A DNA stretch of 64,000 nucleotides from Parapedobacter luteus. GTDB lineage: Bacteria > Bacteroidota > Bacteroidia > Sphingobacteriales > Sphingobacteriaceae. Location: the NCBI RefSeq assembly GCF_900168055.1, contig NZ_FUYS01000002.1, forward strand, positions 558,888 through 622,887, given 5' to 3'. The position numbers were made by a program, and so were the translations under genes. This document shows, in pieces, positions 8,920 to 14,400 of this stretch (positions are counted from its first letter, which is position 1; every line of letters begins with the position of its first letter). The notes beneath the pieces are model-generated. The model saw only the letters and a program-made list of their open reading frames with translations, was not told where the DNA came from and searched no databases.

Positions 8920-9004
8920 GCATCTCGCACGAGTTTTATGCTGTATCGGATATGGGAACTCATGCAGGTTTGTTATGTTTGTGCCATACCAATACAATTC
9001 CATT

Positions 9005-9850
9005 ATGCGGCATATCAGTATCATTGGTTCGGGCACCATGGGAAATGGAATCGCCCATACATTTGCTCAATTCGGTTTTGACGTTTCCCTTGTTGACATC
9101 AACCCGGATGCATTATCAAAAGCGCTGCTCACGATTGCGGACAACCTTGATCGTCAAATCAAAAAAGGAACGATTACCGATAGTGACAAACTGCACACAC
9201 TTGGACGCATCGCTACATATTCGAGTGTAGCCGACGGCGTCAAGGCGGCGGACTTCGTCGTGGAAGCGGCCACCGAAAATGAGGCGGTAAAGCTGGGCCT
9301 ATTTGCCGAACTGGATCGTTTATGTCCAGCCCACACGATCTTAGCCAGCAATACTTCGTCAATATCGATAACCAAAATTGCGTCAGCCACTTCGAGGCCG
9401 GACAAGGTTATCGGAATGCACTTTATGAACCCCGTGCCGGTCATGAAGCTTGTTGAAGTGATAAAAGGCTATGCCACATCAGTGGATACAATAACCACAA
9501 TTATTGCCCTTTCAAAACAGTTGGATAAAGTCCCCGTGGAATCAAATGACTATCCGGGCTTCGTGGCTAACCGCATTTTAATGCCCATGATTAACGAAGC
9601 GATCTATGCCTTATACGAGGGTGTAGCGGATGCCGAGGCGATTGATACCGTCATGAAACTGGGCATGGCCCACCCGATGGGGCCTCTGCAATTGGCTGAT
9701 TTTATTGGACTTGATGTGTGTTTGTCCATACTGCGGGTACTCCACAGCGGCTTCGGGAATCCCAAATACGCACCATGTCCGCTGCTGGTCAATATGGTGG
9801 CCGCGGGTAAGCTGGGCCGTAAAAGCGGACAGGGGTTTTACCGATATTGA
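9005..9850 (+). CDS. 3-hydroxybutyryl-CoA dehydrogenase (3-hydroxyacyl-CoA dehydrogenase family)
   Basis: 281-residue NAD-dependent enzyme that interconverts 3-hydroxyacyl-CoA and 3-oxoacyl-CoA. The Rossmann glycine motif is GSGTMGNGIA at residues 7-16. The catalytic His lies in GMHFMNPVPVMKLVEV, and the C-terminal helical dimer domain contains NRILMPMINEAIYAL and GMAHPMGPLQLADFIGLD. The start was moved from 8873 to 9005 because the upstream extension runs through a terminator hairpin and is not family-like. A TATGTTTG box at 8974-8981 could be its -7 element, though no good TTG lies upstream of it. It may work with the acyl-CoA dehydrogenase and enoyl-CoA hydratase genes elsewhere in the window. 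Confidence 0.92.
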   Translation: MRHISIIGSGTMGNGIAHTFAQFGFDVSLVDINPDALSKALLTIADNLDRQIKKGTITDSDKLHTLGRIATYSSVADGVKAADFVVEAATENEAVKLGLFAELDRLCPAHTILASNTSSISITKIASATSRPDKVIGMHFMNPVPVMKLVEVIKGYATSVDTITTIIALSKQLDKVPVESNDYPGFVANRILMPMINEAIYALYEGVADAEAIDTVMKLGMAHPMGPLQLADFIGLDVCLSILRVLHSGFGNPKYAPCPLLVNMVAAGKLGRKSGQGFYRY

Positions 9851-9930
9851 TGGAGCCTTCGGGCTGAAAAACGCCAAAGTCCCTAAGACAATCGCATTCA
9901 ACAAATGCTGGTGTTCTATGGCACCCTAAG

Positions 9931-10033
9931 GTACTTCTTTCGTACTACTTCCTTACACTTACTTTACCTTTTACTCGGATTTTATTCGGCATTTGTTCGG
10001 ATCATGTTCGGAGTTTGCTCGGTTATTAACCGA
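9931..10033. repeat. 11-bp periodic degenerate array ending in a palindrome
   Basis: Nine consecutive 11-bp units. The first four (from 9931, 9942, 9953, 9964) carry TAC at positions 2-4, and the next five (from 9975, 9986, 9997, 10008, 10019) each begin TCGG. The register holds at exactly 11 bp throughout, although the unit bodies differ. The array closes with a perfect inverted repeat, TCGGTTA-T-TAACCGA, at 10019-10033. It fills part of the 374-bp gene-free stretch 9851-10224, which also holds a 7-bp hairpin (TATATTC/GAATATA, 10058-10075) and no convincing gene. Confidence 0.7.
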
Positions 10034-10190
10034 ATAAACTAAAAAGAAAAAACAACTTATATTCATAAGAATATACCGTTTTATGTAAATTTGGGGTAAG
10101 GCTGACTTACGTTATGAGTAGGGGGACACCTGCCTAAGTTAAGCCCTCAACAGGAGATCGTGCGGTTGACCCGCCGAGTCCTGGATGTTT

Positions 10191-10220
10191 TTGCGTCTCG
10201 CAAGGAAATGCGTACCTTTG
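10191..10220 (+). promoter_or_regulatory. Promoter of RluA-family gene, abutting the start codon
   Basis: TTG at 10191-10193, 19 nt, TACCTTTG at 10213-10220. The ATG follows after only 4 nt (10225), so the transcript should begin at or next to the start codon. Confidence 0.7.
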
Positions 10221-10224
10221 TAAC

Positions 10225-10968
10225 ATGAAAACCCTGGATGGGCGCACGCCCAAATTCTTGCAGTTTGCCGATTTGATTATCCACGAAGATGACAACCTTA
10301 TTGTCATCAATAAACCACCGTTTCTAGCATCACTCGATGAACGCGAAGGGGGAGAAGCTAGTGTGCTACGCCTGGCAAAAAAATACCATCCGGATGCCCA
10401 GATATGTCACCGGTTGGATAAGGAGACTTCGGGACTCTTGCTGATTGCTAAAAATCCAGAAACATACCGTTTGATTGCTATCGAATTTGAGCGCCGCCGG
10501 GTGTCTAAGATATACCATGCCATCATTGAAGGTACGCATGTGTTTGAAGACCTATTGGTAGATTTGCCCATTCTGAACTTAGGTAACAAGAACGTAACTA
10601 TTGACCGTGCCAACGGTAAACGTGCCGAAACGTATTTCAGATCGCTACGCTATTTTAAACACTATACATTGGTAGAATGCCGTCCCATAACGGGCCGCAT
10701 GCACCAAATCCGTGTACATTTGGCTACACAGCACGCTGCTATAGTGGGTGACACCCTCTATCGCGGTAAACCCGTTTTTCTTTCGCAAATCAAGAAACGG
10801 GGGTTTACCTTGGGTAAAGGACAGGAAGAACTTCCGATTATGAAGCGGTTTGCGCTCCATGCCCGTGAGTTGCAATTGACCGTTGGCGACCAAGCCTATC
10901 GTTTCGAAGCCCCATACCCGAAAGATTTTGCTACGCTGCTCCGACAGTTGGAAAAATACGATGACTGA
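10225..10968 (+). CDS. RluA family RNA pseudouridine synthase
   Basis: 247-residue pseudouridine synthase that isomerises uridines in rRNA or tRNA. The RluA catalytic motif HRLDKETSGLLL is present, with predicted nucleophile Asp65. Further family motifs are INKPPFLASLDE near residue 31 and GRMHQIRVHLA near residue 156. It has no S4 domain. The exact RNA target is unknown. A well-formed promoter ends 4 nt before the ATG, so this mRNA is probably leaderless. Confidence 0.93.
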   Translation: MKTLDGRTPKFLQFADLIIHEDDNLIVINKPPFLASLDEREGGEASVLRLAKKYHPDAQICHRLDKETSGLLLIAKNPETYRLIAIEFERRRVSKIYHAIIEGTHVFEDLLVDLPILNLGNKNVTIDRANGKRAETYFRSLRYFKHYTLVECRPITGRMHQIRVHLATQHAAIVGDTLYRGKPVFLSQIKKRGFTLGKGQEELPIMKRFALHARELQLTVGDQAYRFEAPYPKDFATLLRQLEKYDD

Positions 10969-10983
10969 ATGCACCCCGTCGTA

Positions 10984-11013
10984 TTGGATATCCATACAAT
11001 TTTACTAAGTTTG
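10984..11013 (+). promoter_or_regulatory. Promoter of the metal-efflux locus, abutting a GTG start
   Basis: TTG at 10984-10986, 19 nt, TAAGTTTG at 11006-11013, then 5 nt to the GTG at 11019. It fits the consensus and probably drives the small gene together with czcA and czcB. Confidence 0.65.
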
Positions 11014-11018
11014 GCTCC

Positions 11019-11345
11019 GTGAAGTTACTTCGTGTCATATTGCTGATGTACATCGGCGTATTGTCGTTGATTCCTTGTCGTGATGATATCTCGGCATTAG
11101 GGTTTGACGGTCCATTGACACATGCGGCTTCCGGCCATTCGGACGCTCATTCCCACGACTCATGCAGCCCATTCTGTGTAGGCAACTGCTGTGGTGCAGT
11201 ATGGGGGCTCCGTATGGGGATTGGTCCGATAAAAGATCCCATTTATTTCCCTTTCACGAGTGACCGCGCAATTCTTTACGATATCGGCCTCATCCCTAAC
11301 TGGTTTTTGAGCAAAATCTGGCAACCCCCGCAGGCTACCGTTTAA
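11019..11345 (+). CDS. Small Cys/His-rich exported protein, DUF6660-like
   Basis: 108 residues beginning with GTG. A hydrophobic N-terminus (MKLLRVILLMYIGVLSLIPC) looks like a signal peptide or lipoprotein signal. A cluster likely to bind metal follows: SGHSDAHSHDSCSPFCVGNCC, about residues 38-58. Proteins of this build (DUF6660 family) commonly sit directly before CusA/CzcA-type efflux genes in Bacteroidetes. A role as periplasmic metal-binding accessory is inference from composition and position. The GTG start is supported by a promoter ending 5 nt before it. It lies 113 bp before the efflux pump gene. Confidence 0.75.
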   Translation: MKLLRVILLMYIGVLSLIPCRDDISALGFDGPLTHAASGHSDAHSHDSCSPFCVGNCCGAVWGLRMGIGPIKDPIYFPFTSDRAILYDIGLIPNWFLSKIWQPPQATV

Positions 11346-11458
11346 TCTTACTTTACATTTCTATTTAATCGCTGTAGATTGGCGTTGGCATGCCTATGGC
11401 TGTACGCGGCGGTATCGGCGATCCGAAGTTGATTACTTATAAATTAATCGGTCAAGCA

Positions 11459-14400
11459 ATGTTAGATGCTGTCATAAAATTTAGTATAAAAAACAAGATT
11501 ATTATTGGCTTGCTGACCCTATCCCTCATCATTTGGGGAATATGGAGTGCTAGCAGACTGCCCATTGATGCCGTACCCGATATCACTGACAATCAGGTAC
11601 AGATTATTACCATCTGTCCAACACTGGCGGGGCAAGAGGTGGAACAATTGGTCACCTTTCCGATTGAACAAAGCATTGCAAATGTACCCAACCTGGACGA
11701 GATAAGGAGTATTTCGCGGTTTGGTTTGTCGGTTGTCACGGCTGTGTTCTACGAAAATACCGATATTTATTTCGCCCGACAGCTTATCCACGAACGGCTA
11801 CAGGAGGCCGTTGAACAGATACCGATTGGTATCGGTACACCTGAATTGGCACCAGTAAGCACCGGCCTGGGCGAAGTATATCAATACATCTTGCGCCCAA
11901 AGGCAGGAAGCGAAGCCAATTATTCGGCCATGGACCTGCGTACCATGCAGGATTGGATTGTCGCCCGTCAGTTGCGGGGAACGCCCGGCGTTGCTGAGAT
12001 CAACAGCTTCGGCGGTCAACTCAAGCAATACGAGGTTTCGGTCAATCCAGATAAGCTCAAATCCATGGATATCGGTATCCCGGATATATTTGACGCCCTG
12101 GAAGTCAATAATCAAAATACGGGCGGGGCGTATATTGATAAAAAGCCAAACGCGTATTTCATCCGAGGGATCGGGCTGGTCAACTCACTGGAAGATATCG
12201 GCAATATCGTTGTGAAAAGCCGCTCCAACAGCGTTCCGATACTCATCAGGGATGTTGCCGAAGTGCGGTACGGAAGTGCTATACGGTACGGGGCGCTCAC
12301 ATACAACGGCGAGGTGGATGCGGTAGGAGGCGTGGTGATGATGCTTAAGGGACACAACAGCAATGAAGTTGTCCAGCGTGTGAAAGCCAAGATACCCACG
12401 ATACAGCAATCGCTGCCGGACGATGTGGTCATAGAGCCCTACCTTGACCGCACCGAACTGGTGGGTCGAGCCATGGGTACAGTGGAAAAGAACCTTGTTG
12501 AAGGGGCGCTAATCGTCATTTTTGTATTGGTGGTTTTTCTGGGGAACCTTCGGGCGGGACTCATTGTCGCTTCTTCCATCCCCCTTGCAATGCTTTTCGC
12601 GCTGGGCATGATGAATGTCTTTGGCGTAAGCGCAAACCTGATGAGCCTGGGTGCGATTGATTTTGGACTCATCGTTGATGGCGCAGTGATTGTCGTAGAG
12701 GCCGCCCTGCACCACTTGGGAATACGAAAATCTACCGAACGCCTTACCCAACGTGAAATGGATGAGGAAGTGTACCGGTCGGCTTCAAAAATACGCACGA
12801 GCGCGGCATTCGGCGAAATCATCATCCTTATTGTCTATATTCCGATCCTCACACTGGTAGGTATCGAGGGCAAAATGTTCCGCCCCATGGCCATGACCGT
12901 GGGCTTTGCCATATTAGGGGCATTGATATTGTCGCTTACTTACATCCCCGTGATGTGTGCCTTGTTCCTTCCAAAGGCAAAGACCGCAAAGACTTCGTTT
13001 TCAGACCGGATGATGGCTCGCCTGCAACAGGTTTACAGGCCGCTGCTGGAAGGTGCAATGCGCATAAAATACGTGCTTATTGGTACTACCGCGGTGATTT
13101 TTGCTGTATCCCTCATCGTCTTTTCAAGAATGGGCGGAGAGTTTATCCCACAATTGGAAGAAGGCGATTTTGCGTTCCATTGTATCCTGCCGCAGGGTAC
13201 GTCCTTGAGCCAAAGTGTCGAAACCTCCATGCTGGCATCGCGTATCATCAAACAATTCGACGAGGTCAAAATGGTCGTCGGCAAAACCGGTGCTGCCGAG
13301 GTGCCAACTGACCCAATGCCTCCCGAAGCTACAGACCTGATGATTATCCTTAACCCCAAAGATGAGTGGCCGGTACGTAAAACATATAAGCAACTTGCCG
13401 ATGAAATCATGGAAAAACTGACCGTAATCCCAGGCGTTTTCTTCGAGTCAAACCAACCGATTCAAATGCGTTTTAATGAGCTGATGACGGGTATCCGACA
13501 GGATGTAGCTGTGAAGATCTTCGGGGAAAACCTGGATTCGCTATTGGTCTACGCAAACCAAGTGAGCCGAATCATACAAGGCGTGGAAGGTATCACTGCA
13601 CCACAGGTAGAACGGATAGCCGGTCTACCGCAGATCAACGTCGTATACGATCGTGCGCGGATCGCTAACTACGGATTGTCAGTTTCGGCACTGAATGACA
13701 TATTGAGTACGGCATTTGCCGGAAAGGCCGCTGGATTGGTGTTTGAAAATGAACGGCGGTTCGAGCTTGTTGTCCGGCTAGACAGTGTATATCGGAGTTC
13801 GATAGCGGATGTCGCCAACTTATGGGTACCTTTGCCGACCGGAGAACAGGTGCCGTTGTCCCAACTGGCACAGGTGTCATTTAAGATTGGCCCGGCACAG
13901 ATAAGCCGCGAAGATGGAAAAAGGCGCATCGTTATTGGATTCAATCTGGACGGCCGTGATGTAGCTAGCGCAGTAGCCGAAATACAGGCAAAACTCCAGC
14001 AACAGGTCCAACTACCCGCGGGATACTATTATACCTATGGAGGAATGTTCGAGAACCTACAAAAGGCCTCAAACCGCCTGATGGTGGTGGTCCCTATATC
14101 GCTGGCGTTGATTTTCATGCTGCTTTTTTTTACGTTCAACACGTTCAGACACGCAGCATTGATCTTTACGGCTATCCCGATGAGTGCAATCGGTGGCGTA
14201 TGCGCATTGCTGTTGCGGGGCATGCCGTTCAGCATCTCGGCGGGGATCGGTTTTATCGCACTCTTCGGCGTCGTGGTATTGAATGGAATTGTATTGATCG
14301 GCACATTCAACCAACTTGAAAAGGAAGGGTGGACTGACGTAGTTGCGCGAGTGTTGGAGGGAACGAAGATCCGGTTACGGCCGGTGCTGATGACCGCCGC

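Follow-up and report, generated by a model that had tools for sequence, protein, structure and literature searches.

The 11-bp phased array found in the window, the whole 64,000-nucleotide stretch of Parapedobacter luteus DNA that was analysed, is the left arm of a two-armed element built around a dyad. Arrays of this kind share their phasing, have a recurring dyad geometry, are dispersed through the genomes of the genus, are linked to genes of the DUF6266 family and have exchanged their unit type at two fixed loci. By analogy with known systems the array may, tentatively, be regarded as an operator or nucleation site for a head-to-tail oligomer of a winged-helix protein, which is the best of the explanations considered. 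It appears to work most like the winged-helix direct-repeat operators, of which it may be one.

The array and its dyad consist of the following parts.

9932..9975, plus strand: outer left arm, four 11-bp units starting with TAC, identified from the sequence and the lag-11 self-match.

9976..10022, plus strand: inner left arm, CGG at five successive 11-bp steps, identified from the sequence and conserved in an alignment of 19 copies.

10019..10033, no strand: perfect 15-bp palindrome with the dyad centre at 10026, identified from the sequence; the 10-bp CGG-to-CCG offset is also found in 12 of 15 other CGG loci.

10085..10120, minus strand: right arm, GTA, GTA, TTA and GTA mirroring the left TAC units, identified from the sequence, the mirror score and a reverse-strand profile match (E 0.0017).

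An earlier note on this DNA had placed TAC at 9932, 9943, 9954 and 9965, CGG at 9976, 9987, 9998, 10009 and 10020, and the palindrome TCGGTTA-T-TAACCGA at 10019-10033, all of them correctly. It was mistaken in taking the palindrome as the close of the array. The palindrome is the centre of the element, and the right arm had been missed. The mirror images of the left TAC units about 10026 are GTA at 10085-10087, GTA at 10096-10098, TTA at 10107-10109 and GTA at 10118-10120, and the element therefore spans about 9932-10120. Outside the palindrome, complementarity about 10026 is 42/90, compared with a maximum of 36 and a mean of 22.5 for other centres within 9000-11500. The mirror score beats every control centre in 12 of 16 elements (L011 and L024 are below, L020 and L026 tie), and 18 of the 23 CGG loci have an opposite-strand profile match at E 0.01 or better.

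The periodicity of the left arm is unique in the window. Over the whole 64 kb the highest lag-11 score of any 55-bp stretch matched to itself is 35/55, whereas the lag-11 maxima of 40 first-order Markov simulations of 64 kb have a mean of 27.3 and a highest value of 31. All 62 starts of 55-bp stretches that reach 30 at lag 11 lie in 9922-9985, and when lags 5 to 30 are compared, a score above 30 is reached at 11 (35), at twice that lag, 22 (34), and at no other. A chance origin is ruled out by the simulations, by the single-site lag-11 peak and by the recurrence of the profile in the genus. The earlier note had held chance to be the likely reading should relatives lack similar arrays and no protein bind, and this reading fails because such arrays recur across the genus and upstream of DUF6266 genes. 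A simple tandem repeat was also rejected: Tandem Repeats Finder reports merely a 2.2-copy fragment at 9969-9994, because the bodies of the array units vary.

Close copies of the element were found in its own genome and in the genus by a DNA search of 41 genomes. A family profile was built from the sequence of 19 copies, and loci matching it at E 1e-12 or better were called strong. There are 23 strong CGG-type loci in six of the nine Parapedobacter genomes: five in the genome of the window (G000), three in G002, six in G006, five in G005, three in G004 and one in G007. G003 and G008 have no profile match at E 0.01, and G001 has weak matches only. The copies in G000 are 71-85% identical across 182-336 bp. 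In the 19-copy alignment the left arm carries deletions, of exactly 11 bp in L011, of 12 bp in L012 and of a larger part in L027. The repeat number also varies: the window has nine forward units, and other loci have as many as 25 TAC-phased ones. The switch from TAC to CGG units, which had been called odd, is indeed present, but arrays of this type are usually built that way in the genus. No description of such arrays was found in the literature searched, which does describe other 11-bp repeat systems.

The units of the arrays differ between DUF6266 groups. Types read by eye and by consensus are TTCGG, TACC, TAGGG, ATCGT, CCCGTCA and CGAAC (a TTCG unit read on the opposite strand); the window has the type AGTTTATTCGG. 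The 11-bp period is constant across these types, and many loci of other genera have a period of 10 or 11 bp. The dyad offset, counted only where an inverted triplet lies within 30 bp, is usually the same in three of the types. From the forward to the mirrored triplet it is 10 bp in 13 of 16 CGG loci (21, 21 and 9/20 in the others) and 10 bp in six ATCGT loci, ATCGT loci lacking an inverted triplet having been left out. From TACC to GGTA it is 9 bp in 12 of 16 loci, which is the same geometry as the 10-bp triplet offset, and 20 bp, about one unit more, in the remaining four. With the motif used, the TAGGG arrays do not show the 10-bp offset: theirs is 11 bp in two loci and 22 bp in one. From the sequences we infer that a constant geometry across types reflects one binding architecture with changing base recognition. 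The earlier note had proposed that a protein could lie along one face of the DNA. An 11-bp period that is kept while the unit sequence changes fits binding of this sort, and the proposal is partly supported.

The arms of the TACC arrays are unequal in 14 of 16 loci, with 3-4 units on one side and 9-25 on the other when one missing unit is allowed. This bears on the idea that the array acts as RNA by forming hairpins. The plus strand of the window's element folds better than all of 200 shuffles (z -3.2), but the minus strand is weaker (z -1.8, with 10 of 200 shuffles folding as well) and the window has no Rfam match at the gathering score. Furthermore, most units of these TACC arrays would have no pairing partner because of the inequality of the arms. 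A role as RNA is extremely unlikely.

Two loci show that the unit type can be replaced in place. The D-Ala ligase/PASTA locus carries a CGG array in G005 and a TACC array in G006, and the ribD/prmC locus carries a CGG array in G006 and TACC arrays in G000 and G003 (the neighbours were named by Pfam in one species each and by eye in the others). At both loci the flanks align on either side of the array, and the TACC arrays are all-TACC where the other species has a CGG array. Orphan arrays are also of TACC and TAGGG type. It is possible, if somewhat doubtful, that these arrays form a sequence-addressing system of the Sphingobacteriaceae, in which chromosomal tracks of constant geometry (11-bp period, 10-bp dyad offset) with a swappable triplet would stay at fixed intergenic sites while their unit sequence is replaced there, and would diversify together with DUF6266 cassettes carrying the same tracks.

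The surroundings of the element in the window, and the promoter-like boxes in and beside it, are as follows.

9005..9850, plus strand: upstream gene for 3-hydroxybutyryl-CoA dehydrogenase (NCBIfam NF004474, E 3.8e-125, above the cut-off).

9853..10187, no strand: DNA present here and missing at the same junction in G002 and G003, from an empty-site comparison with approximate ends set by eye.

10086..10093, plus strand: promoter-like box TAAATTTG inside the right arm, which fits TAnnTTTG; 10 of the 19 copies have an exact TAnnTTTG in this position.

10213..10220, plus strand: TACCTTTG, which, judging from the sequence, probably serves the downstream gene as its own promoter box; it is present in G003 too.

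10225..10968, plus strand: downstream gene for an RluA family pseudouridine synthase (NCBIfam TIGR00005, E 2.4e-50, below the model's cut-off).

The -7 promoter consensus of Bacteroidota is TAnnTTTG. An exact box of this form is present in all four copies that precede a DUF6266 gene but in only 6 of the 15 copies without one. The distance from the dyad to the box is gapless in 18 of the 19 aligned copies, the exception being L027, by one base. Flanking ORFs are divergent at 17, co-oriented at 12 and convergent at 3 of the 32 CGG/TACC loci, and divergent at 1, co-oriented at 3 and convergent at 3 of the 7 TAGGG loci. The ORFs were called mechanically with a minimum length of 110 aa, and four of them run into an array; some of the 32 loci are orthologous and hence not independent.

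The rluA locus has the array in G000, G005 and G006, whereas in G002 and G003 the same genes are separated by 43-50 bp and there is no array. In the other four genomes of the genus the two genes do not stand side by side within the stretch read. Such presence and absence, together with the 71-85% identity of the G000 copies, would be expected of a non-autonomous mobile element of the REPIN or MITE sort, moved by some enzyme that recognizes the phased units at its ends. REP and REPIN sequences associated with RAYT are dispersed intergenic repeats, and the gene family is flanked by the same repeats. The arrays are likewise dispersed and intergenic and also stand beside a gene family. However, the REPs described in the available text of PMC3733652 are palindromes of 20-40 bp, whereas the element is about 190 bp long, contains long 11-bp phased arrays and occurs at only 1-6 strong CGG loci per genome in six genomes. 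Unlike REP and REPIN sequences, the arrays exchange their unit type at fixed loci, and at the two loci described above the type was replaced while the flanks remained alignable. DUF6266 matches no transposase in Pfam, and none was recognized among the 25 neighbour families listed of 37 matched (69 of 94 ORFs, from other genera). No target duplication was seen at the rluA locus, the single locus inspected. Mobility of this kind is unlikely as an explanation of the arrays.

The regions around some of the arrays are identical between G000 and G002 over runs of 474 and 940 bp (L010/L013 and L012/L014), and the RluA-like proteins of these two genomes are just 87% identical. A recent exchange of array regions between G000 and G002 is possible.

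A chromosome-organizing or segregation site of the parC/ParR sort was also considered. There are several array sites per genome, and ParR sites are direct-repeat arrays too, with a repeat of 10 or 11 bp in two plasmids and with cognate specificity according to the available text of PMC9426499. Unlike plasmid parC, however, the arrays are chromosomal and several per genome, there are no partition genes (ParM/ParR) among the neighbour families listed, and the CGG and TACC arrays are mostly upstream of at least one gene. A segregation site is very unlikely.

A gene of family PF19781 (DUF6266) is directly downstream of 4 of the 23 strong CGG loci. The family is found in all nine genomes of the genus (86 matches) and in 60 of 121 genomes of the taxonomic family, and no paper on it was found in the literature searched. 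The arrays upstream of these genes were detected by a lag test, which takes the best self-match lag among 7 to 20 in the 450 bp upstream of a gene; two of the 86 matches were left out for want of upstream sequence. For the 62 DUF6266 genes that are first in their locus the best lag is 11 in 55, 10 in 3 and another in 4, whereas lag 11 is best in 1 of 22 genes that are second in tandem. The 129 control ORFs, purged beforehand of CGG-array upstream matches and of CGG-type DUF6266 genes, have lag 11 as the best in 11 cases, and five of them reach 30 at lag 11. At 31 loci, of which almost all belong to other genera and the majority to the same taxonomic family, the best lag is 11 in 12, 10 in 9 and another in 10; these counts have no control set, and several of the scores are no higher than the control values.

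The link raises the question of whether DUF6266 itself binds the arrays, each group reading its own unit, regulating its own gene and acting in trans on orphan arrays such as that of the window. The unit sequence tracks the DUF6266 group. In the nine genomes, and for the CGG, TACC and TAGGG types, all 15 genome-type pairs that have the matching DUF6266 group also have arrays, as against 4 of the 12 pairs that lack the group (Fisher p 0.0002), a result for which relatedness, left uncorrected, could alone account and in which the types were chosen after inspection, the groups were set by eye and the patterns were exact. Reversed patterns, used as a control, give up to 2 matches in a few genomes. 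Taken type by type, TAGGG alone is below p 0.05. Moreover, G000 contains five CGG arrays but no CGG-type DUF6266.

Structure prediction also bears on this reading. In the AlphaFold2 model of DUF6266 (pLDDT 82; a second model has pLDDT 71) a three-stranded sheet at the N terminus and two helices, which could agree with a DNA-binding role, are accompanied by a C-terminal sandwich. The sandwich, however, matches FN3 domains (best E 5.8e-5), and all of the 50 Foldseek matches listed are FN3 or cytokine-receptor-like chains, with no DNA-binding fold among them. One DUF6266 protein compared by sequence with known structures gives a best E of 0.61, and in Pfam the only family matched above the cut-off is PF19781. 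In other genera DUF6266 precedes endolysin-like CHAP genes, which suggests a structural or released protein. That DUF6266 reads the arrays is distinctly unlikely. As a necessary binder it is weakened further by the genomes that have arrays and no matching DUF6266, and by the HTH_17 genes described next.

A same-strand gene of family PF12728 (HTH_17, excisionase/MerR-like) lies within 2.6 kb upstream of 19 of the 64 first DUF6266 genes, where 0.12 would be expected. The count is a lower bound, because the script motifs reveal more HTH_17 genes below the threshold. The four CGG-type DUF6266 genes have none nearby, and 45 of the 64 first genes have none at the threshold. Among 69 of the 94 ORFs that neighbour 25 loci of the taxonomic family, HTH_17 and CHAP are the commonest families, with 10 each. 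Matches of the HTH_17 proteins to the PHROGs excisionase families are weak (best E 2.4e-5), and the PADLOC match to mad1 (E 7e-6) was read as the HTH domain alone. The TACC locus of G000 has an HTH_17 gene, at C10:486848-487144, and an AAA_14/DUF4143 gene lies between its array and DUF6266, on the opposite strand (L174, G000 C10, 1654-2811). G002 and G006 have TACC arrays without the TACC-associated HTH_17 and without that DUF6266 group, and G007 has this HTH_17 and no TACC array by exact pattern. The binder is most likely a protein of the HTH_17/MerR-like class, because such genes precede a fair share of the arrays at DUF6266 genes. CarH, one of the proteins compared below, belongs to the MerR family.

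The operator reading can be put as a model, in which the binder, the filament and the effect on transcription are all inferred by analogy. The element is a double-stranded DNA track with nine forward 11-bp units to the left of the dyad and mirrored units to the right, one per helical turn. A small DNA-binding protein would nucleate at the dyad and assemble head-to-tail along each arm. Once the right arm was occupied, the promoter-like TAAATTTG would lie under the protein, and transcription would thereby be gated. The target would be DUF6266 where it is present downstream and, in the window, transcription towards the rluA-like gene, which probably has its own TACCTTTG further downstream. The genes downstream of orphan arrays look unrelated, and no regulon logic is therefore visible.

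Several characterized operators resemble such a track. The Apl protein of phage 186 binds direct repeats spaced 10-11 bp and represses two promoters. Its operators and those of lambda Xis, like the arrays, have several direct repeats at intervals of one helix turn, placed at promoters or between them (PMC7498355, available text), and some of the arrays have beside them small HTH_17 proteins with weak excisionase-family matches. In the same text, however, Apl has seven and five sites, whereas the arrays have up to 25 phased units, two opposed arms at a dyad, dispersed orphans and units that vary with type. BldC of Streptomyces, a MerR-like protein, forms a head-to-tail filament on a varying number of direct repeats. 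It differs, in what is available of PMC5859096, by the two to four subunits measured per DNA, a single consensus repeat and the lack of opposed arms. CarH binds tandem 11-bp direct repeats over promoter elements, but the accessible part of PMC9304148 describes a tetramer on three or four repeats and no dispersed orphan sites. The 25 phased units thus exceed the unit counts given in these texts for the operators of Apl, BldC and CarH. RdfS, as far as its account was available, forms helical filaments and has no clear consensus site.

If the filament reading is true, nature has in these arrays long tracks on which helical DNA-binding oligomers assemble, and they provide a ready series for the study of filament nucleation and spread, with about 9 to 25 units, differing unit sequences and a period of 10 or 11 bp. 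A change of specificity in place, with the geometry kept, would make the co-evolution of a DNA-binding protein and its multi-site operators directly observable. The arrays are also the first handle on DUF6266, a multi-copy family.

Additional repeats are found close to DUF6266 genes. Several genera (L129, L131, L133 and others) have units in a 10-bp phase, each made of GTCAAA or GGCAA with a few further bases, shortly before the gene, and at some of these loci the units are preceded by an 11-bp array. Upstream of many DUF6266 genes, such as those of L041, L045 and L051, a TACCGGTA or ATACCGGTAT palindrome follows a TAnnTTTG-like box and precedes the start codon, and may be a second operator.

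Other identities were tried for the DUF6266 proteins and rejected: five of them compared with PHROGs give a best E of 0.094, and two, with three downstream proteins, have no PADLOC match, so neither a phage gene nor a defence system was recognized in these searches. At several loci of other genera HTH_17, the array and DUF6266 follow one another in this order, and after them come genes for a small protein that we read as a putative membrane protein, for a CHAP/endolysin-like protein and for a protein that we read as lipoprotein-like. DUF6266 and its downstream genes in L123-L141 (for example L127 and L141) are reminiscent of a phage lysis or release cassette. One of two viral contig scans gave no relative and the other gave one. 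In a viral contig (L117, 290-3925) DUF6266 is accompanied by putative holin-, lysozyme- and lipoprotein-like genes, which adjoin genes that by eye look like Cas2 and Cas1.
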